The notes below the pieces were generated by a model. That model ran no database searches. It worked only from the letters and a program-made list of their open reading frames with translations, and had not been told where the DNA came from. From NCBI RefSeq assembly GCF_014395785.1, contig NZ_CP060713.1, positions 1,082,501 to 1,146,500 on the forward strand: a stretch of DNA of 64,000 nucleotides. Reading direction: 5' to 3'. Positions within the stretch are counted from its first letter, which is position 1, and every line of letters starts with the position of its first letter. Source of the DNA: Nocardioides mesophilus (lineage in GTDB: Bacteria; Actinomycetota; Actinomycetes; Propionibacteriales; Nocardioidaceae). This document shows, piece by piece, positions 15,239 to 26,670 of the stretch. A program made the position numbers and the translations under genes.

Positions 15239-16103
15239 CCCGCTCGAGCGCGGTGGCCACGAACGCCGGACCGTCACAGGTCACGGTGAGCCGGAGCGGA
15301 GCGCCCCGCTGCAGCATCGCCACCACGTCGTCGGCCGGGGGTACGTCGACCCCCCGCGGCAGCCGGACCGGCAGCGTGACGGCGGCGAACGCCGGCGGCA
15401 CGACCGGCGACGGTCCCTGCACCACGACGGTGATCCGGGCCGGCGCGCGCACGTCGCCGTCGAAGCGGACCTTCGCGCGCTGCTCGACCCCGGTCCACGC
15501 ACCGGTCAGGGTGAGCGGCGCGTCCAGGTCGCAGCGCACGGCCTGTCGGGCCCGGGTCAGGAACTCGGGCGCCGTCTTCGCCTCCTCGTCGATCCACACC
15601 TGTCCGTCGGACAGGACCGCGACCCCGGGGTCGACCCCCGGCACGGCCCGCACGGTCGACTCGTAGGTCTCGGCCGCGCCGCCGCCGTCGTCGCAGCCCG
15701 GGTGCACGCCGGTGCCCAGGACCTTCCCGGGGCGCAGCTCGGCCCCCTCCCCCAGGCTGCCGTCGCCGAGGTAGCGGTGGCCGGCGAAGTCCAGCAGCGC
15801 GACGCACTTGGCCTCGCCGGTCCCGCCCGGGTCCGGCGGTCCGGTGAGCAGCGGGACGGCGACGGCCACCGACGCCGCGACCAGGCCGGCGCCCACGAGG
15901 CCGACGGTCAGTCGCCGGCTCCTGGGCCGGCGACCGGGCCCGCGCCCGTGCCGGCTGCCGTGCGGCGCACCTGCCGGCTCCGGGGTGGGTGGCTGCGCGA
16001 GGACGGCACCGGGGGCGAAACCGGGAGCCGTCGCGGCGGCCTGGTGCAACCGCCGGCGCAGCAGCTGCTCCACCTCGGCGGTGGAGCGGTCGGTCTCAGG
16101 CAT
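15228..16103 (-). CDS. Single-pass membrane protein partnered with SigE-family sigma factor (putative anti-sigma), 291 aa
   Basis: Cytoplasmic N-terminus of about 65 residues starting with an acidic helix (TDRSTAEVEQLLRRRLH), one membrane helix near residues 66-86 (LTVGLVGAGLVAASVAVAVPLL), then an extracytoplasmic domain with several Cys. The start overlaps the sigma-factor stop by eight bases. That layout is what anti-sigma factors of SigE-type ECF sigmas show, but no zinc-binding HxxxCxxC motif is visible, so regulation of the sigma factor is inferred from position and topology only. Confidence 0.7.
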   Translation of the reverse strand: MPETDRSTAEVEQLLRRRLHQAAATAPGFAPGAVLAQPPTPEPAGAPHGSRHGRGPGRRPRSRRLTVGLVGAGLVAASVAVAVPLLTGPPDPGGTGEAKCVALLDFAGHRYLGDGSLGEGAELRPGKVLGTGVHPGCDDGGGAAETYESTVRAVPGVDPGVAVLSDGQVWIDEEAKTAPEFLTRARQAVRCDLDAPLTLTGAWTGVEQRAKVRFDGDVRAPARITVVVQGPSPVVPPAFAAVTLPVRLPRGVDVPPADDVVAMLQRGAPLRLTVTCDGPAFVATALERVSG

Positions 16104-16608
16104 CGTCGTCCTCCTCGTGCCCCGCCCAGGTCAGGTCGGCGCGCAGCGTGGCGAGGGCGCGAGCCACCAGGCTGCGCACCGTCGCCTGCCGGCAGCCGAG
16201 CACCTCGGCGATCTGCTGGTCCGGGCAGTCCTCGTAGTAGCGGAGCACCACCGCGGCGCGCTGCCGCGACGAGAGCCTGGCCATCGCGCCCCAGAGCGCG
16301 TCGCGGTCCTCCACGACCGTGCTCGCCGGCGGCGCCTCCAGCGGCGCCCGGCCGGACCGGGTCAGCGCCCGCAGGTGGGCCGCCGCCCTTCGGCCGCCAC
16401 TGCGGTGCAGGTTGACCAGCGACCGCCGCGCGAACGCCTCCGGGTTGTCGATGCCGTCCAGCCCCCGCTTCGTCAGTTGCAGCAGCACCGTCTGCACCAG
16501 GTCCTGGGCGTCGTGCGCCGACCCCGTGAGCAGGTAGGCGAAACGCGTCAGCGCCTGCCCGTCCGCCGCGGCGTAGCCCGCGAGATCACCCGGCGGCGAC
16601 CCGCTCAC
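16096..16608 (-). CDS. SigE-family RNA polymerase sigma factor (ECF), 170 aa
   Basis: Short ECF sigma factor. Region 2 is seen as LTRFAYLLTGSAHDAQDLVQTVLLQL and region 4 as LSSRQRAAVVLRYYEDCPDQQIAEVLG followed by the recognition helix RQATVRSLVARAL. The GTG at 16608 is chosen for its distance from GGGGAAG; an open frame extends to 16668 without coding character. Co-transcribed with the overlapping membrane gene. Confidence 0.87.
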   Translation of the reverse strand: MSGSPPGDLAGYAAADGQALTRFAYLLTGSAHDAQDLVQTVLLQLTKRGLDGIDNPEAFARRSLVNLHRSGGRRAAAHLRALTRSGRAPLEAPPASTVVEDRDALWGAMARLSSRQRAAVVLRYYEDCPDQQIAEVLGCRQATVRSLVARALATLRADLTWAGHEEDDDA

Positions 16609-16711
16609 GCCCACTTCCCCGATGACGTCCACACCCCTTCGACGCACGAGCGGCCGAACTTGTTGCACCAGTGTCGGGCCCCGGTGCTCCGCAGCCGGCC
16701 GGACACGGCGA

Positions 16712-16770: not shown

Positions 16771-17532
16771 TCAGCGTCTGCGCAACCACCGGACCAGGAC
16801 CGCCAGCACGACGAGCGCGGCGAGCCCCTGCTTCCAGTACGCCTTCGCCAGCACCGGGAGCACCGTCGCGCCGAGGTTGAGCGCGTCGTCGCCCTGGTGC
16901 TGCACCGGCACCCGGCGGGTCGCCGTCGGGACCTCGGCCACGCCGAGCGGCGGCGCGGTCGTCTCCGCACCGGGTGCCGCCCCGTCGGCGCTCGGAGCGG
17001 CTGCGGTGGGACCCGGGACGGTGGCCGGCCCGGGGGCTCCCGCGGCCGCCGTACCCTCCGCCGGCACCTCCTCGGGAGCCGCGCCCACGGTGCGCTCCAG
17101 GCAGTCGACGAACTGCTGGAGCAGCTTGTCGCTGACGTCCTGGATCACGCCGCGCCCGAACTGGGCGGGCTTGCCGGTGATGGACAGGTCGGTGACCACC
17201 ACGATCTCGGTGGCATCGCCACTGGCCACGACGACCTCGGCGAACGAGGCCGTCACGGTGGCGCCGGCCGTCCCGTTGCCGCGCTTGTCCTTGCCCTTGG
17301 CCTCGACGACGAAGCGGTGGGCCGCCTCGTCCTTCTCCAGGAACGAGCCGGTGCCGGCGTACACCAGCGCGATCGGCCCGAGCTTGACCTTGCAGGTGCC
17401 CTTGAAGTCGTCGCCGGCGACCTCGGTGACGGTCGCCCCCGGGAAGCAGCCCGCCACCGACTCGATGTCGTTGAAGGCCGCCCAGGTCGTGTCCAGGCTC
17501 GCCGGGACGGTGAACCGATGGGTCAGGTCCAC
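16771..17532 (-). CDS. coxG: CoxG: SRPBCC-domain membrane-anchored partner of molybdenum hydroxylase, 253 aa
   Basis: Residues 1-150 form a SRPBCC/CoxG hydrophobic-cavity domain (AFNDIESVAGCFPGATVTEVAGDDFKG is the classic opening). A Pro/Ala-rich linker of about 80 residues follows, then a C-terminal helix (GLAALVVLAVLVRWLRRR) that anchors it to the membrane. Family work indicates CoxG recruits CO dehydrogenase to the membrane and handles menaquinone, coupling oxidation to the respiratory chain. The GTG start lies seven bases after the coxM stop, making it the last gene of the operon. Confidence 0.88.
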   Translation of the reverse strand: MDLTHRFTVPASLDTTWAAFNDIESVAGCFPGATVTEVAGDDFKGTCKVKLGPIALVYAGTGSFLEKDEAAHRFVVEAKGKDKRGNGTAGATVTASFAEVVVASGDATEIVVVTDLSITGKPAQFGRGVIQDVSDKLLQQFVDCLERTVGAAPEEVPAEGTAAAGAPGPATVPGPTAAAPSADGAAPGAETTAPPLGVAEVPTATRRVPVQHQGDDALNLGATVLPVLAKAYWKQGLAALVVLAVLVRWLRRR

Positions 17533-17539
17533 GCCGCGA

Positions 17540-18394
17540 TCACGCTCCCGCAGCCGCGAGCACGGCCCGCCGGGTGAGCACGGTCGCGAGGTGCCGGCGG
17601 TAGTCGGCGTCGCCGTTGAGGTCCGAGGGCGGGTGGGTGCCCTCGGCGGCCGACGCAGCTGCCGCGCGTACGGCCTCGTCGGTGGCCTGCTGGCCGACCA
17701 GCGCCTGCTCCACCGCCCGGGCCCGCAGCGGCGTGGAGCCCATGTTGGTCAGGCCGACCCGGGCCTCGGCGATCGTGCTGCCCTCGAGCCGGACCGCCGC
17801 CGCGACCGCGACGATCGGCCACTGGTGCGCGACGCGCACGAACTTCTCGTAGTGCGCCCCCCACCCGGACCGCTTCGGGAGCCGGACCTCGGTGAGGATC
17901 TCGTCCTCGGCGAGCGCGGTGGTGAACAGGTCGACGAAGAAGTCCTCCGCCGACACGGTCCGGGTGCCGCCCTGGCCGGCGATGACGAACTCCGCGTCCA
18001 GCGCGAGCGCCGGGGCGCCGAGGTCGCCGGCCGGGTCGGCGTGCGCGAGCGCGCCGCCGAACGTGCCCCGGTGCCGCACCTGTGGGTCGGCGACCTCGGC
18101 CACCGCCTTGCTGATCAGCAGCGCGTGCTCGCGGACCAGCGGGTCGGTCTGCACCTCGCTGTGCGGGGTCATCGCGCCGATGACGATCGCGTCGCCGTCG
18201 TCGCGGATCCCGCGCAGCGACTCGATCCTGCCCAGGTCGATGACGAGCTCCGGCGCGTTGAGCCGCATCCGCAGCACCGGCATCAGGCTCTGGCCGCCGG
18301 CCATGATCTTGGCCTCGTCGCCGCCCTCGGCGAGCGCCGACAGCGCCTCCTCGACGGTCGCGGGGGCCACGTAGTCGAACTTGGCGGGGATCAC
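17540..18394 (-). CDS. coxM: Molybdenum hydroxylase FAD-binding medium subunit (CoxM-like), 284 aa
   Basis: FAD-binding subunit of a xanthine-oxidase-family enzyme. [14 protein letters not shown] near residue 33 and [14 protein letters not shown] near 111 are the two FAD-binding motifs; a CO dehydrogenase flavoprotein C-terminal domain follows. It passes electrons from the 2Fe-2S subunit towards the quinone pool. The GTG start overlaps the coxL stop by four bases (GTGA), so expression is coupled. Confidence 0.92.
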
Positions 18395-20895
18395 TGGTCG
18401 GCTCCTTCTCCGGCGCCTGCGGCACCGGCGCTGCGGTCGGCTACGTCCTGCTCGTCGAAGTGCGGTGCCGCCCCACCCGGGGTCGGCGTCGCGCCGCCCG
18501 CGTCCTTGCTGTGGATGGCCTTGTAGATCCGCGCGGGAGTGCACGGCATCTGTACGTCGTTGACGCCGAAGTGCCGGATCGCGTCGACGACCGCGTTGAC
18601 CACGGCCGGGGTCGAGGCGATGCAGCCGGCCTCCCCGACGCCCTTGGTGCCGAGCGTGTTGCTCGTCGCGGGGGACGTGGTGTGCGCGGTGTCGAAGCTG
18701 ATCGTGTCGGCGGCGGTCGGCACGAGGTAGTCCACGAACGACGCGGACACCAAGGTGCCCGACTCGTCGTGCACGGCCTCCTCCCACAGCGCCTGGGCGA
18801 TCCCCTGGACGAGTCCGCCGTGCACCTGCCCCTCGACGATGAGCGGGTTGACGATGTTGCCGATGTCGTCGACGGCGACGTACTTGCGCATCTTCACGCC
18901 GCCGGTCTCGGTGTCGATCTCCACCGCGCACAGGTGCGTGCCGTGCGGGAAGGAGAAGTTCACCGGGTCGAAGGTCGCCTCGGAGTCCAGCGACGGCTCC
19001 ACGCCGTCGGGCAGGTTGTGCGCGGCGAACGCGGCGAGCGCGATCTCACCGATCGCCAGGCCCTTGTCAGTGCCCTTGACGGTGAACCGGCCGCCGGAGA
19101 ACTCCACGTCGTCGGCCGAGGCCTCGAGCAGGTGGGCCGCGATCGGCTTGGCCTTCTCGATCACCTTGTCGGCGGCGCGTATCAGCGCCTCGCCCCCGAC
19201 CACCAGCGACCGGGAGCCGTAGGTGTCCATGCCCTTGTGGGAGATCTGGGTGTCGCCGTGCAGCACCTCGACGTCCTCGAACGCGACGCCGAGCCGGTCC
19301 GCGACGATCTGCGACCAGGCCGTCTCGTGGCCCTGGCCGTGCGGGGAGACGCCGGTGACGACCTCGACCTTGCCGGTGGGCAGCATGCGGATCGCTGCGT
19401 TCTCCCAGCCGCCGGCGCCGTAGTTCAGCGAGCCGAGCACCCGGGAGGGAGCCAGGCCGCACATCTCGGTGAAGGTCGAGATGCCGAGCCCGAGCTGCAC
19501 CGGGTCGTTTGCCTCGCGGCGCCGCTTCTGCTCGGCGCGGAGCTCGTCGTAGCCGAACATCTCCTTCGCCTTGGCGGTGGCGGCCTCGTAGTTGCCGGAG
19601 TCGTACTCCAGGCCGCACACCGAGGTGAACGGGAACTCCTCGTGCTTGATCCAGTTCTTCTCGCGGATCTCCAACGGGTCGACGCCGACCTCGACGGCCA
19701 GCTCGTCCATCAGCCGCTCGATCGCGAACGTCGCCTCCGGCCGGCCGGCGCCGCGGTAGGCGTCGGTCAGCGTCTTGTTGGTGTAGAGGTTCGTGCAGTT
19801 GAACTGGTACGCCGGGAACTTGTAGATCGCGTTGAACATGAACGCGCCGAGGATCGGGACCCCGCCGCCGACCGTGCCGGCGTACGCGCCGAGGTCGGCG
19901 AGCAGGTCGACCTTCAGCGCGGTGACGGTGCCGTCCTTGGTGGCGGCCAGCGTCAGCGTCTGCCACTGGTCACGACCGTGGTGGGCGGCCATCAGGGACT
20001 CGGAGCGGGTCTCGGTGAACTTGCAGGGCTTGCCGGTGCGCCGCGAGGCGAGGACGGTGATGACCTCCTCGGGGACGAACTGGAGCTTGCCGCCGAAGCC
20101 GCCGCCGACGTCGGGGGCGATGACCCGGATCTTGCTCTCGGGGATGCCCAGCACCACAGCGAGGAAGAACCGGGTGACGTGCGGGATCTGGGTCGAGGAC
20201 CACAGCGTCAGCTGCTCCCCGGTCGGGTCGCTCACGAACGAGCGCGGCTCCATGAAGGCGGGGATCAGCCGCTGCTGGCGGTACTCCCGCTCTATCACGA
20301 TGCCGTTGGCCCGGGCCTCCTCGATGGCCGCGTCCACGCCGCTGCCGGTGCCGGCGTTCTCGGAGTCGAACTGCCAGAACGCGGACTTGTTGGTGCCCAG
20401 GTCGGGATGGGCGAGGACCGTGTCCTTCGCCGCCTCCTTGAGGTCGAGGGCCGCGGGCAGCTCCTCGTAGTCGACGTCGACGAGCTCGGCGGCGTCACGG
20501 GCCTCGGCGGCGGAACGGGCGACCACGACCGCGACGATCTCGCCGGCGAACGCGACCCGGTCGACCGCGATCGAGGGGTGCACGGGCGACTTCTGGTCCG
20601 GCGTGATGTTCCACGCGGTCGGCAGCCCGCCCTGCTCGTCGGCGACGTCGGCCCCGGTGATCACCGTGACCACGTTGGTGGCGGCCAGCGCCTCGGAGGT
20701 GTCGACGGAGAGGATCTTGGCGTGCGCGTAGGGGCTGCGCACCATCGCCAGGTGCAGCATGCCGGGCAGCTGGATGTTGTCGGTCCACTTGGTGCGACCG
20801 GTGATCAGCCGCTGGTCCTCCTTGCGGCGGCGGGCCTTGCCGACCTCGGCGGTGGGCGCGCCGTCCTGCTCGGTGCGGTCGTCGGTCATCGTCAT
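18391..20895 (-). CDS. coxL: Molybdenum hydroxylase large subunit, form II CoxL type, 834 aa
   Basis: Catalytic Mo-MCD subunit. [14 protein letters not shown] (Moco binding) and the C-terminal [11 protein letters not shown], with the catalytic Glu, are intact. The active-site loop reads AYRGAGR at residues 379-385; in form I CO dehydrogenase this is AYRCSFR, whose Cys binds copper. The Gly here places the protein in form II, whose members are often not CO oxidisers, so the substrate may be an aldehyde or a heterocycle. The ATG overlaps the coxS stop (ATGA). The C-terminus ends in an Ala/Gly/Asp-rich tail. Confidence 0.93.
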
Positions 20896-21368
20896 GACGT
20901 CGCCCCCGCGCTCGACCCGGCGGCGCTCTGCACGGCCTTCACGATGTTGTGGTAGCCGGTGCACCGGCACAGGTTGCCCTCGAGACCCACCCGGATCTCC
21001 TCCTCGGAGGGGTGCGGGTTGTCGTTGAGCAGGTCGATCGACTGCATGATCATGCCCGGCGTGCAGTAGCCGCACTGCAGGGCGTGGCACTCGTGGAACG
21101 CCTTCTGCACCGGGTGCAGCTCGCCGTCGTGGGCCAGGCCCTCGACGGTGGTGACCTCGTGCCCGTCGGCCTGGACGGCCAGCATGTTGCAGGACTTCAC
21201 GCTCTTGCCGTCGAGGTGGACGGTGCAGGCGCCGCAGTTGCTGGTGTCGCAGCCCACCACGGTGCCCACCTTGCCGAGGCGTTCACGCAGGTAGTGGACG
21301 AGAAGCATGCGTGGCTCGACGTCGTCGGTGTACGACGCCCCGTCGACGGTGACGTTGATCTGGGTCAT
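20892..21368 (-). CDS. coxS: Molybdenum hydroxylase 2Fe-2S small subunit (CoxS-like), 158 aa
   Basis: Two [2Fe-2S] domains. The N-terminal plant-ferredoxin type has [14 protein letters not shown] and a later KSC. The C-terminal helical type has QCGYCTPGM and CRCTGYHNI. The length is normal. First gene of the coxSLMG unit; AGGGAG precedes the ATG. Its promoter region carries the SARP-like repeats described separately. Confidence 0.94.
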
Positions 21369-21410: not shown

Positions 21411-21442
21411 ACACTAGGGAGTCAGGGTTGGCGGAAGGTTGG
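21411..21442 (-). promoter_or_regulatory. coxS promoter: -10 TAGTGT with SARP-type heptamer direct repeats
   Basis: On the minus strand, CCAACCT (21442-21436) and CCAACCC (21431-21425) repeat with an 11-bp period. The second heptamer is separated by exactly eight bases from the -10 box TAGTGT (21416-21411). No -35 consensus is present. This geometry is the textbook operator of SARP activators. The upstream repeat nearly touches the stop codon of the regulator gene. Confidence 0.62.
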
Positions 21443-21443
21443 C

Positions 21444-22736
21444 TCAGCCCCCGGAGGCGGCGAGCCGGCCCTTCAGCAGCGCCCGGGCCGGGTGCCGGTC
21501 CTCCCCCAGCGCGGCCAGCGCCACCTCGATCACCTCGGTGTCGTAGGGCGCGAGCGCGGTGTAGCGGATCACCGCGTGCGGCTGCGGGTCGGCCAGCAGC
21601 GCCTCGCGCACGGCGACGGCGACGTAGTCGGCGAGCTCGGCGAGCGCCGGCGAGTTGGTGCCGGGGAAGAGGTCGCCGCCGTACGCCTCGACCGCGGCCG
21701 CCACCTGCCCGCGGCCGATCAGGTCCAGGACCGTGTCGACGTCGGTGCGCGCGGCCAGCGTGAGCCGGTAGGGCCGCGAGGCCAGCCGGCCGCCCAGGGC
21801 CGAGCGCAGGTGCGAGACCTCCGCCTTCAGCGTGGACAGGGTGACCGCCTTCTCGCCGTAGACCAGCGCGTGCAGCTGCTCCAGCGAGAGTCCCTCCGGG
21901 TGCAGCGCGAGCAGCGCGAGGATCTCGGTCTGCCGGCGGTTCAGCAGCAGCCGCCTGCCGTCGAGGCGGGCCTCGGCGGTGCCGAGCAGGGTCAGGCTCA
22001 GACCCGGGGACTCCGTGGCCGGGGCGGGCGACGGCGACACCGCGGAGGCGGGCCGTCCCGCCGGCGTCGCGCCCGCCGGGCCGGCGCTCCAGCCGACCGC
22101 CGTCGTCGGCAGGGCGTTCTCGATGAGCCGGGCCATCACCCGCGCGGTCGCCAGCCCGATGGGGTGGGTGCGGTCCCAGGTGGTGGAGAGGTCGATGACG
22201 CCGAGCAGCTGCCCGGTCAGCGGGTCGTGCACCGGCGCGGCCCAGCACACCCAGTTGTGCACGATCGGGGCGTAGTGCTCGGCGCTGAAGACCATCGAGG
22301 CCCGGTCGGTGCGCAGCGCCAGGTCGAGCGCGTTGGTGCCGACGCTGGACTCGTCCCAGCGGCCGCCCGCGACGAAGTTGACCGTCTCCGCCTTGCGGCG
22401 CATCACCCGGCCGCCGTACGTCCACAGGATCCGGGTGTCGGGGTCGGTGACCGCGACGACGAGGTCGCCGTCCTCGGCGGTCCGGCGCAGCTCGTCCTCG
22501 ATGCGTGCGACCGCCACCTGCAGCGGGGACCCGTTCCAGAACGCGGTGGTGTCGGACTCGTCGGCCAGCGGGGCCTCGGTGACGTCGCGTCGGACCGCGA
22601 CGCCGGAGCGCTCCCAGCTGCGCAGGATCTCCGGGCGCACCATCGCCGCGAGCGCGTCGCCCTGCTCGACGAAGGCGGTCCAGGCGCGCACGGCATCGAG
22701 CCGCCGGCCGTGCAGCTGCTCGCGTGATCGGTTCAT
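21444..22736 (-). CDS. GAF-domain regulator with SARP-like winged-helix and BTAD-like C-terminus, 430 aa
   Basis: The N-terminal part resembles the sensory half of AcoR-type regulators: LRSWERSGVA near residue 40, then a GAF domain with SSVGTNALDLAL and NWVCWAAPVHDPLTGQLLGVIDLS. No AAA+ domain follows. Instead, after a Pro/Ala linker, residues about 246-330 form an OmpR/SARP-like winged helix (LLLNRRQTEILALLALHPEG, then LSTLKAEVSHLRSALGG), followed by a BTAD-like helical tail. Located between the accessory and structural cox genes, it probably senses the substrate and activates coxSLMG; that is inference. Confidence 0.82.
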   Translation of the reverse strand: MNRSREQLHGRRLDAVRAWTAFVEQGDALAAMVRPEILRSWERSGVAVRRDVTEAPLADESDTTAFWNGSPLQVAVARIEDELRRTAEDGDLVVAVTDPDTRILWTYGGRVMRRKAETVNFVAGGRWDESSVGTNALDLALRTDRASMVFSAEHYAPIVHNWVCWAAPVHDPLTGQLLGVIDLSTTWDRTHPIGLATARVMARLIENALPTTAVGWSAGPAGATPAGRPASAVSPSPAPATESPGLSLTLLGTAEARLDGRRLLLNRRQTEILALLALHPEGLSLEQLHALVYGEKAVTLSTLKAEVSHLRSALGGRLASRPYRLTLAARTDVDTVLDLIGRGQVAAAVEAYGGDLFPGTNSPALAELADYVAVAVREALLADPQPHAVIRYTALAPYDTEVIEVALAALGEDRHPARALLKGRLAASGG

Positions 22737-22824: not shown

Positions 22825-23960
22825 TCAGTGGTGGATCCGGTCCTCCAGCTCCGAGAGCCGCTCGCCACGGCCGCCCCACTGCAGCGCGATGATCTCCGCG
22901 GCGATGCTCACCGCGGTCTCCTCGGGGGTCCGGGCCCCCAGGTCCAGGCCGATCGGTGAGGAGAGCCGGGCCAGCTCGGCGTCGGTCAGCCCGGCCTCGA
23001 CCAGCCGCTCCAGCCGGTCCTCGTGCGTGCGGCGCGACCCCATCGCACCGACGTACCCGACCTCGGGCAGGCGCAGCGCGACCTCGAGCAGCGGGACGTC
23101 GAACTTCGGGTCGTGGGTGAGGACGCACAGCACGGTACGGCGGTCGATCCGGCCGGCCTCGGCCTCCGCCCGGAGGTACTTGTGCGGCCAGGTCACCACG
23201 ACCTCGTCGGCCGCCGGGAAGCGCGAGTTCGTCGCGAACACCGGCCGGGCGTCGCAGACGGTCACGTGGTAGCCGAGGAAGTTGCCGATCCGGGCGACCG
23301 CGGCCGCGAAGTCGATGGCGCCGAAGACCAGCATCCGCGGCGGCGGCGCGAACGCCCAGACGAACACCCGCATGCCCTCGCCGCGCCGCTCCCCCTCGGG
23401 GCCGTAGGTGAGCGTCTGGTGGTGCCCGGCGGCGAGCAGCCCGCGTACGTCGTCGACCACGGCGGCGTCCGCACGCTCGCTGCCGAGCGACCCCTCGACC
23501 TCCGGGGCGCCGTCGGCGGGCGTCACGGGGCGGACCACCACCCGGGCGCCGATCCGGGCCGGGTCGGGGTGCTCGACGACGGTGGCCACCGCGACCGGCC
23601 GGCCGGCCTCGATGTCGTCGGCGACGCGCCCCAGCCAGGGGAAGGTCTGCTGGCTCACCTTCTCCACGAAGACGTCGAGGATCCCCCCGCAGGTGAGCCC
23701 GACCGCGAAGGCGTCGTCGTCGCTGACGCCGTACCGCTTCAGCACCGGCTCGCCGCTGCCGACCACCTCCTGCCCGAGGTCGTAGACGGCACCCTCGACG
23801 CAGCCGCCGGAGACGGAGCCGACCGCCTCGCCGGCGGGGCCGACCAGCATGCTGGCGCCCGGCGGCCGGGGGCGGAGCGGAACGTCGCGATCACCGTCCC
23901 CATGCCGACGGTCTCGCCGGCGCGCCACCAGCGCATCAGCTCGGGAAGCACCTCACGCAT
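22825..23960 (-). pseudogene. XdhC/CoxI-family molybdenum-cofactor insertion protein, frame broken by one missing base
   Basis: XdhC-type chaperones bind and sulfurate molybdenum cofactor and load it into hydroxylases. The start at 23960 gives MREVLPELMRWWRAGETVGMG and TFRSAP; the frame is lost at the G run 23868-23872 and resumes as RPPGASMLVGPAGEAVGSVSGGCVEGAVYD, the XdhC signature. The C-terminal Rossmann domain is intact (RMLVFGAIDFAAAVARIG). Restoring one base gives 378 aa, the normal size, with no other lesion. The 5' end overlaps coxE by eight bases. A sequencing error is more likely than real inactivation. Confidence 0.85.
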
Positions 23961-25091
23961 GGGCCACCACCTCGATCAGGTCCTCGAACGTCGCCAGCGA
24001 GTGACCGGCGACGAAGTCGTCAACGTGGGCGAGCGACGCCACGATTCCCGCCTGCACCGGCTGGTAGCCGGCCTTGCCGACGTGCGGGTTCACCCAGACC
24101 ACCCGGTGGGCCAGCGAGTGCAGCCGGCGCATCTGCTCGCCGAGCAGCGTGGTGTCGCCGCGCTCCCAGCCGTCGCTGAAGATCACGACCACCGCGCCGC
24201 GGGCCAGCCCGCGCTGGCCCCACCGGTCGAGGAAGATCTGCAGCGTCTCGCCGAGCCGGGTGCCGCCGGACCAGTCCGGCACCGTCTCGCCGGCCGCCAC
24301 GATCGCCCGCTCCGGGTCCCGCAGTCCCATCGCCCGGGTGATCCGGGTCAGCCGGGTGCCGACGGTGAACGTCTCGACCCGTCCCTTGGCACCCTGGTCG
24401 CGGGCGGCCGAGCTGAACCGGTGCGCGAGCCGCAGCAAGGCGTCGGCGTACGGGCTCATCGAGCCGGACACGTCCAGCAGCAGCACCACCCGGCGCGGCC
24501 GCTGGGTGCGGCGTCGCCAGGCGATCTCGGCCGGCTCGCCCATCCGGGACAGCATCAGCCGCAGGGTCCGGTCGGCGTCGACCCGACCCCGGTGCCAGGG
24601 CAGCTGCCGGTGCGCCCGGCGCATCGGGGTGCGCGGGCGCAGGGTCTCGAAGAGCGCGGCCAGCCGGCCCTTGTCCAGCGGGCTCATCCCGTCGATGTCG
24701 CGGTGCCGCAGCACCTCGTTGCCGCTGGCGGTGGCCCGCAGCGGGTCGGTGTCGTCCTCCTCGCCGGCACCTCCCCGGTCGGTCTCCTCGAGGGCGGCCT
24801 GGGCGACGGGCGGCCGCTCGGGCGGGCGGCTCTTCTCGCCGGGCCGGTCCTTGCCCTGGAACCAGGCGGTGAAGACCTGGTCGAACCGGTCGAGGTCGTC
24901 GGGCCCGGAGCAGAGCGTGGCGCGGCCGGCCCAGTACGTCGCCCGCTGGTCGCCGAGGTCGACGAGGGCGGTCGCCCGCAGGAAGGTCTGGGCGCGGTCC
25001 ATCGTGACCGGCACACCGGCGGCGCGCAGCGCCCGGGCGAAGCCGAGCAGCAGCTCGTCCGGCGCGTGCACCAGCTCGGCGGCGCGTTCCA

Positions 25092-25092
<1 letters not shown>
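23953..25092 (-). CDS. coxE: CoxE-like VWA domain protein, 379 aa
   Basis: The C-terminal VWA domain has an intact MIDAS: LLLDVSGSMSPY near residue 207 (DxSxS), with later Thr (GGTRLGE) and Asp (FSDGWERGD) positions. The N-terminal 130 residues are helical and charged. In CO dehydrogenase clusters CoxE works with the AAA+ ATPase CoxD in maturing the Mo(-Cu) active site. The start codon shares one base with the coxD stop (TGATG). Confidence 0.9.
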
Positions 25093-26012
<920 letters not shown>

Positions 26013-26058: not shown

Positions 26059-26670
26059 TCAGGCCAGGTCGCCGGGACGGTCCACGTCGCGGCCGGTGGC
26101 CAGGTCCCCGCACTCCACGAGCCGCACCGGCCGCTGCGCCAGGTAGTCGCGGGCGCCGCGGTCCCCGCGGGCGGCCTCCGCGATGCCCGCCCAGTGCGCC
26201 CGGCCCAGCAGCACCGGGTGCCCCGGCTCGCCGCCGTACGCCGCCCGGGCCAGCGTGTCCGCGCCGGCCCCGCCGGCGAGGAGCCGTCCGACCACGTCCG
26301 CGGTGACGTCCGGCAGGTCGACCAGGGTGACCAGGACCGCGACCGGGCCGCCTGCCTGCCCGGCACCGAGGGCGGCGAGCCCCTGGCGCAGCGACGCCCC
26401 CATCCCTTCGTCCCAGTCGCCGGCACGGACCACGGTGACGGCGGGGTCGCCGGTCCAGCCGGCCTCGTCGAGCAGCGCCACCGCCTCGTCGGCGGCGGCG
26501 CCGAGCACCACCGTGACGCTCGCGCAGCCGCCCTCCAGCAGCAGCCCGACCGCCCGGTCGAGGAACGGCACGCCGCGGGCGTCGCGCAGCTGCGCCTTGG
26601 GCAGCCCCATCCGGCGCCCGGCGCCCGCGGCGAGCAGCAGCCCGGCGACCTCCCGGCCGGCAGCGCTCAC
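26059..26670 (-). CDS. MocA-like molybdenum cofactor cytidylyltransferase (NTP_transf_3), 203 aa
   Basis: MobA/MocA-like nucleotidyltransferase: GLLLAAGAGRRMGLPKAQL is the nucleotide-binding loop, DLPDVTADVVGRLL carries the metal-binding Asp, and GHPVLLGRAHW follows. In a xanthine-oxidase-family cluster this enzyme is expected to convert Mo-MPT plus CTP to the MCD cofactor used by CoxL. The GTG start overlaps the dipeptidase stop by four bases, and 46 bases separate it from coxD. Confidence 0.85.
   Translation of the reverse strand: MSAAGREVAGLLLAAGAGRRMGLPKAQLRDARGVPFLDRAVGLLLEGGCASVTVVLGAAADEAVALLDEAGWTGDPAVTVVRAGDWDEGMGASLRQGLAALGAGQAGGPVAVLVTLVDLPDVTADVVGRLLAGGAGADTLARAAYGGEPGHPVLLGRAHWAGIAEAARGDRGARDYLAQRPVRLVECGDLATGRDVDRPGDLA

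Follow-up and report, generated by a model that had tools for sequence, protein, structure and literature searches.

How might a molybdenum (Mo) hydroxylase operon be switched on by a regulator that carries a GAF sensor, and what would this regulator recognize on the DNA? The question is raised by a locus of Nocardioides mesophilus, of which we analysed a stretch of 64 kb (hereafter the window). The gene order on the minus strand is MoxR-like, coxE-like, xdhC-like, regulator, coxS, coxL, coxM and coxG-like, and 75 bp separate the stop codon of the regulator from coxS.

25092 to 26012, minus strand: MoxR/CoxD-like AAA ATPase (Pfam AAA)
23953 to 25092, minus strand: CoxE-like VWA protein
22825 to 23928, minus strand: XdhC/CoxI-family maturation factor
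21444 to 22736, minus strand: GAF-SARP-like one-component regulator, an open reading frame of 430 residues with an ATG start
20892 to 21368, minus strand: coxS-like 2Fe-2S subunit of the Mo-hydroxylase, the target gene (Pfam Fer2_2 and Fer2)
18391 to 20895, minus strand: coxL-like molybdopterin subunit with AYRGAGR
17540 to 18397, minus strand: coxM-like FAD subunit, its start assigned by us within the open reading frame 17540-18931
16771 to 17532, minus strand: coxG-like protein (Pfam COXG)
16096 to 16668, minus strand: ECF-like sigma factor gene, downstream of coxG

Between the MoxR-like gene and that of an M19 peptidase, a frame on the minus strand (26059-26669) resembles by eye a molybdenum-cofactor nucleotidyltransferase (MocA-like).

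We considered the possibility that the target enzyme was an aerobic CO dehydrogenase. A CSFR motif is expected in the CoxL of form I CO dehydrogenase; a motif search did not find it in the CoxL of the window, where the active site reads AYRGAGR. This protein scored 659 bits with the NCBIfam model for CODH, whose cut-off is 991. CO dehydrogenase was therefore rejected, on the grounds of the AYRGAGR site and of scores below the NCBIfam cut-offs.

Domains and predicted fold of the regulator

22086 to 22640, minus strand: DhaR/AcoR-type N-terminal sensor with GAF, residues 33-217 (Pfam GAF at 111-209)
21747 to 22007, minus strand: OmpR-type winged helix, residues 244-330, with the recognition helix at 300-313 containing Lys304 and His309
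21447 to 21746, minus strand: six-helix tail, residues 331-430, shortened BTAD-like (helices at 332-429 in the model)

An earlier note, made from the sequence alone, had described this protein as an AcoR-like GAF sensor joined to an OmpR/SARP-type winged helix with a BTAD-like tail and no AAA+ domain. A Pfam scan placed GAF above its cut-off and Trans_reg_C at 22 bits, below the cut-off of 26.2; at E <= 1 it returned no BTAD, AAA+, Fis-type HTH or receiver domain, in agreement with the note as regards AAA+. The NCBIfam model DhaR matched residues 30-210 with 65 bits, far under its full-length cut-off of 551.

The fold was predicted with AlphaFold2 from alignment A3 (67 of the 71 rows of alignment A2). 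The resulting model (mean pLDDT 90.8, pTM 0.53), in which residues about 213-239 form a low-confidence linker, replaced a shallower first one with a pLDDT of 60.3. Residues 33-217 aligned with E. coli DhaR-N (4lrx) by VIA-align at Z 23.7 over 184 residues and 2.5 Å. The sensor thus contains GAF as had been claimed, with DhaR-N as the closest solved structure. Residues 244-430 of the predicted model aligned with the SARP domain of AfsR (Z 15.8, 187 residues, 4.1 Å) and with EmbR (Z 14.4, 188 residues, 4.5 Å), and plain OmpR-type domains matched about 244-328 only, at Z about 9-10 over about 83 residues. Comparison by hhalign of residues 240-430 with 17 SARP domains from related genomes gave Prob 97.7 and E 9.4e-12 over 175 columns. 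By itself, the tail reached Prob 2.9; the GAF part reached Prob 0.1. Going by the model, residues 244-430 form a SARP-like unit whose BTAD would be short and diverged, and this unit stands behind the sensor, not before it. The OmpR/SARP-type assignment is thereby supported, no unlike fold having emerged. For the BTAD-like tail the signs are mixed: the AfsR structure aligns through residue 430, yet the tail is shortened, has a low Prob by itself and belongs to a family in which Pfam BTAD matches 0 of 67 members.

The operator at the coxS promoter and its conservation

21436 to 21442, minus strand: upstream heptamer CCAACCT of the operator, kept in relatives
21425 to 21431, minus strand: downstream heptamer CCAACCC, 11 bp from CCAACCT, kept in relatives
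21411 to 21416, minus strand: -10 hexamer TAGTGT, 8 bp past CCAACCC; TANNNT stands at 8 or 9 bp in 66/66 relatives

Between the stop codon of the regulator and coxS, the minus strand is laid out as CCAACCT-4 bp-CCAACCC-8 bp-TAGTGT. No -35 was found at this promoter, the best match to TTGACA at spacings of 15-19 being 2/6. The heptamers, their 11-bp period, the 8 bp to TAGTGT and the lack of a -35 had been given by the earlier note, correctly to the base. SARP sites consist of direct repeats at 11 or 22 bp and, according to PMC10936776, their 3' repeat lies 8 bp from the -10. The arrangement that the note had called SARP-like, with repeats at 11 bp, is thus matched in the window.

The coxS operator is the sole match of its kind in the window (at least 10/12, with TANNNT at 8 or 9 bp). 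A site of the accessory operon (MoxR-coxE-xdhC-regulator) was looked for in the same 64-kb scan and rejected, as none was found. The whole genome of 4.49 Mb contains one perfect match to the compound pattern, which is the coxS operator, and three matches with two mismatches, all of them one identical repeated sequence; the backwards control gave one match. As only one site was perfect, we discarded the idea that the genome contains a larger regulon.

We aligned 12 orthologues and searched bacterial genomes with this alignment. Of the 162 relatives found, the best 80 were taken; their titles read Nocardioides, Marmoricola, Pimelobacter or Nocardioidaceae. After 14 loci without coxS had been dropped, 66 with regulator and coxS were compared. 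In all 66 of these loci from the best 80 of 162 relatives, CCAACC-N5-CCAACC was present at 11/12 or better within 400 bp before coxS (12/12 in 43 and 11/12 in 23), a score reached by 0.3% of shuffled coxS upstreams. TANNNT followed the second heptamer at 8 bp in 50 loci and at 9 bp in 16. Both heptamers and the gap of 8 or 9 bp are therefore kept throughout, and the non-conservation that the earlier note had named as speaking against its proposal was not encountered. Where the gap is 8 bp (50 loci), the repeats and the -10 hardly change, and most of the intervening bases vary. Other repeat periods also matched at the coxS upstreams, most of them in 1-4 of the 66 and period 15 in 10 of the 66.

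No repeat of at least 11/12 was found upstream of coxL, coxM, xdhC, coxE, the coxG-like gene or the regulator (0 of 59-77 each); at a lower score of 10/12, coxL upstreams matched in 11/64 loci. The upstreams of the MoxR-like gene reached 11/12 in 34/69. When the -10 was included, 1.44 Mb of loci contained 93 compound sites, 63 at coxS, 30 at the MoxR promoter and none elsewhere, compared with one site in the reversed control, which is valid here as it includes the -10. About half of the relatives' loci thus carry a second copy of the operator at the MoxR-coxE-xdhC-regulator promoter. Since that operon ends with the regulator, positive autoregulation is implied in those species.

In the 66 loci, the match to the regulator precedes coxS, its end lying 82 to 5642 bp away, and in two genomes (G010 and G012) regulator and coxS are on different contigs. 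Because the motif stays with coxS in each case, we assign the operator to coxS.

Operator type follows regulator type

The motif could accompany the enzyme or the regulator. Among 58 relatives searched, 32 had a CoxL match and 28 were compared, each with a readable coxS orthologue (73-100% identical); G032, in whose locus no coxS start was present, and G023, G035 and G057 were left out. Where a genome had two close CoxL copies (G004 and G008), the better one was used, and the second cox operon of G004 also has the motif (11/12). The upstream of G007 comprised 112 bp only. The motif (11-12/12) was present at coxS in 11/11 genomes with a regulator orthologue and in 0/17 without one, the best score among the latter being 10/12 (G019). 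A naive one-sided Fisher test, which counts the genomes as if they were unrelated, gives 4.7e-8. Two genomes of the window's own genus (G003 and G005, coxS 84% identical) lack both the regulator orthologue and the motif, and so does G029, despite having the most similar CoxL of all (86%). Relatives of the GAF half occur elsewhere in the genomes of G003, G019, G026 and G029.

The exact form CCAACCTTNNNCCAACC had 10 matches among the 58 genomes, 9 of them at coxS. With one mismatch it matched many unrelated places (27/58 genomes), and only the exact form was therefore used. The exact match in G007 was put down to chance, as none of the 14 query genes was near and there was no match to the regulator.

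The coxS upstreams of G029, G003 and G005 share another stretch (CTTGTC...CAAARCGGCRACGATC-like). In these three genomes, coxS seems to have been rewired to another promoter.

Four of the 17 genomes without an orthologue (G011, G014, G031 and G036) contain a relative of the regulator at E <= 1e-70 that has arginine at position 304 (Arg-type), in three of them 1.7-1.8 kb from coxL. In G014 and G036 the Arg-type frame is short: it has 372 and 370 codons, respectively, and stops about 60 codons early, inside a longer match. The coxS promoters of all four have GCAACG repeats (11-12/12), not CCAACC, and the GCAACG score in the 13 other orthologue-less genomes was 10 in G019 and at most 8 in the rest. 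This natural swap of the operator in 4/4 Arg-type genomes supports direct recognition. No TANNNT was found 8 or 9 bp past the GCAACG repeats of these four; their promoter geometry differs, and the 8/9-bp rule is thus not universal. Their repeats end beside TTGTGG, with TANNNN 17 bp further on. From these upstream sequences, the activator of the four genomes may be positioned upstream of a -35-like element without taking its place.

Sequence relatives of the regulator are common, which qualifies the interpretation in the earlier note: of 148 genomes from the class, 56 contain a match at E <= 1e-25, and some of these matches do not span both halves. A second group of relatives, mostly 58-64% identical to the one in G011, provided 30 loci. 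A repeat search at periods 8 to 23 found GCAACG at 11 bp in 11 of them, and other periods gave repeats common to more loci, up to 20, so that taken alone this search is no more than suggestive of GCAACG at 11 bp. An aldehyde dehydrogenase gene follows directly downstream in 21 of the 30 (called by Pfam Aldedh for the one tested and by the N terminus for the others). All 21 have GCAACG-like repeats (10-12/12), followed by TANNNT 9 bp past the last heptamer; this gap is measured from the best pair in 19, and in two the best pair is one or two repeats further up.

At several aldehyde dehydrogenase loci, L227, L230, L241 and L249 among them, the -10 is often inside a palindrome, TGTGAC-TANN-GTCACA. 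The CRP site is TGTGA-N6-TCACA. The resemblance suggests added catabolite control at Arg-type promoters.

A further 57, more distant loci were scanned at 11/12 or better plus TANNNT at 8 or 9 bp; the helix is not readable in L032 and L262, and L016 and L080 both denote one place of a single genome. Loci of regulators with Arg304 had GCAACG in 33/44, all with the 9-bp gap, and CCAACC in none; those with Lys304 had CCAACC in 8/11 and GCAACG in none. Reversal is no control for CCAACC alone, which is unchanged when written in reverse (10 matches vs. 10 in the control), and permuted cores were used instead: 14 permutations of CCAACC gave 3 matches in total vs. 9, and 20 permutations of GCAACG gave 0 vs. 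33. In the DNA scanned, no site was found at 11 of the 44 Arg-type loci, including the relative in the window's own genome (L082), nor at three Lys-type loci, from M. dioxanotrophicus (L087), L185, which has a near match, and Nocardia (L255).

The eight Lys-type loci with CCAACC are from one Mycolicibacterium, one Deinococcus and six mutually related Acinetobacter; one Acinetobacter member (L258) has no Pfam match at all. Lys-type sites precede the smo monooxygenase (131 bp), a Rieske/PQQ-dehydrogenase pair (202 bp) and aldehyde dehydrogenases (111-114 bp), of which that of L261 is unannotated and was recognized by eye. The L259 site precedes lipA (129 bp), opposite an operon for a 2-oxo-acid, perhaps acetoin, dehydrogenase. 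In Deinococcus aetherius (L086:7840), a CCAACC repeat (12/12) occurs 143 bp before the start of the regulator, without TANNNT at 8-9 bp. As judged from its position, autoregulation is possible there.

The Mycolicibacterium protein, MYCCH_RS28740 of M. chubuense NBB4, is 39% identical over 97% of the query and likewise has Pfam GAF with a weak Trans_reg_C, and a CCAACC repeat with an 8-bp gap before the smo genes; it differs in adjoining an alkane monooxygenase cluster. On pMYCCH.01, CCAACC repeats with 8-bp gaps were seen 131 bp before the smo gene (L084:12467) and 156 bp before sigC (L084:9278). Table 5 of PMC8784404 enters the protein as 'AcoR; CadC1 HTH domain', and that paper describes the control of the smoXYB1C1Z monooxygenase and the role of MYCCH_RS28740 as being without experimental evidence. 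The repeats near MYCCH_RS28740 offer a candidate explanation for the control of smo.

Which residues might distinguish the two operators? Positions 269 and 304 fully separate 33 Lys-type from 38 Arg-type proteins, and position 309 does so nearly. The split at 269, 304 and 309 may simply reflect descent, many positions of the GAF part splitting likewise. His309 was rejected as the sole specificity residue, because regulators of the CCAACC kind have H, R, T or Q there. By way of the SARP consensus and residue spacing, not of superposition, Lys304 corresponds to Arg87 of AfsR, Ala305 to Thr88 and His309 to Arg92.

We lean towards the view, with moderate confidence, that these proteins form a large, cross-phylum family of GAF-SARP one-component activators, in which a DhaR/AcoR sensor has been transferred from a sigma54 AAA+ engine to one of SARP type that uses the primary sigma factor. 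They would act on xCAACx direct repeats with an 11-bp period, situated 8-9 bp from the -10, the choice between CCAACC and GCAACG being tied to Lys or Arg304 (with Gln/His269 and His/Arg309 as co-varying candidates), and control aldehyde, alkane, Mo-hydroxylase and perhaps acetoin genes.

Proposed mechanism and its significance

Like the SARP activators (AfsR, and EmbR as an FHA-fused relative), the regulator has, in the model, an OmpR-type winged helix and then a helical tail, perhaps a BTAD, and shares with them direct repeats at 11 bp, a 3' repeat 8 bp from the -10 and the lack of a usable -35. Unlike them, it carries the SARP-like unit at the C terminus (sensor 33-217 before winged helix 244-330), with a tail that counts about 100 residues where theirs has about 150, a GAF sensor, a Mo-hydroxylase as target and no match to Pfam BTAD. 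Because the SARP domain is not N-terminal, and with mixed signs of a BTAD, we do not file it as a canonical SARP. With the AcoR/DhaR-type sigma54 activators it shares the DhaR-type sensor half, but neither the AAA+ sigma54-interaction domain nor the Fis-type HTH; with the OmpR/PhoB response regulators it shares the winged-helix fold, but it has no receiver domain, and their match stops at about residue 328. That the regulator would work like a SARP is well supported by the site geometry, the predicted fold and the comparative footprint.

In PMC10936776, AfsR protomers are described as binding two 11-bp repeats side by side, with sigma region 4 placed on protein and not on a -35. An operator in SARP arrangement together with a predicted SARP fold leads us to infer activation by sigma adaptation, and with it binding, operon structure and effector gating. 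The regulator is thus very probably a cytoplasmic one-component activator working by SARP-like sigma adaptation at coxS, as indicated by operator, conservation, geometry and co-occurrence at the sequence level and by the modelled fold. The DhaR/AcoR-type GAF half would sense an effector and control the winged helix and shortened BTAD; two protomers would bind side by side on the two coxS heptamers; and the bound regulator would recruit RNA polymerase as AfsR does, a protein platform for sigma region 4 replacing the -35. The coxS-L-M-G genes would thereby be switched on and, in many relatives though not visibly in the window, so would the MoxR-coxE-xdhC-regulator operon, creating a positive loop.

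We considered the possibility that the regulator binds this site but is gated by a protein partner, as DhaR is by kinase subunits. The closest solved structure to its N-terminal half, E. coli DhaR-N, was indeed crystallized with DhaK and DhaL. Yet, no dihydroxyacetone-kinase family was found among the 15 neighbouring proteins scanned, and the family members adjoin unrelated enzymes, which is better suited to small molecules; we regard a protein partner as rather unlikely. Repression at the coxS promoter, by a site that overlaps the spacer and could block polymerase, appears improbable, since an unaided polymerase would find no -35 and the position fits the activating SARP arrangement. Still less probable is that the repeats serve a different DNA-binding protein, whose co-occurrence with the regulator is due to linkage. 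Co-occurrence is not causation and the genomes are related, but the same-genus G003 and G005, with similar coxS and no orthologous regulator, have no motif, and the Lys/Arg type predicts the motif across phyla. Finally, we give hardly any credence to the repeats and TAGCGT forming a promoter for an alternative (ECF) sigma factor. In its favour, an ECF-like sigma gene is present in the window, sigC lies beside the M. chubuense homologue, and CAACC could pass for an ECF -35. Against it, a 34-37% match to the sigma gene of the window was found in 4 of 80 loci only (51 of the 80 exceed 20 kb, and some are too short to show it), conservation extends to two copies at an 11-bp period, the type of motif follows the type of regulator, and in Acinetobacter the sites are followed by sigma70-like, A+T-rich -10s, for example TATATT and TATGAT.

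Among the titles and abstracts listed for the open-licence PMC literature, none describes a GAF-SARP regulator or a CCAACC operator, and no promoter mapping for smo was found. In the literature searched, the regulator is thus undescribed, save for the architecture entry in PMC8784404.

If the preferred reading of sigma adaptation by a GAF-SARP activator is true, it would supply the operator, the promoter logic and a possible rule of DNA recognition for a regulator family of wide occurrence, whose members appear in the records examined as 'GAF domain-containing protein', 'transcriptional regulator' or 'hypothetical protein'. It would place SARP-style sigma adaptation in ordinary catabolism, probably also outside Actinomycetota. 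Actinobacteria are not known to have sigma54, and the finding would hint at the way in which a sensor usually coupled to this factor can be of use where it is absent. Control of smoXYB1C1Z in M. chubuense would become directly testable, and predictable operators would make GAF-SARP proteins usable as biosensors.
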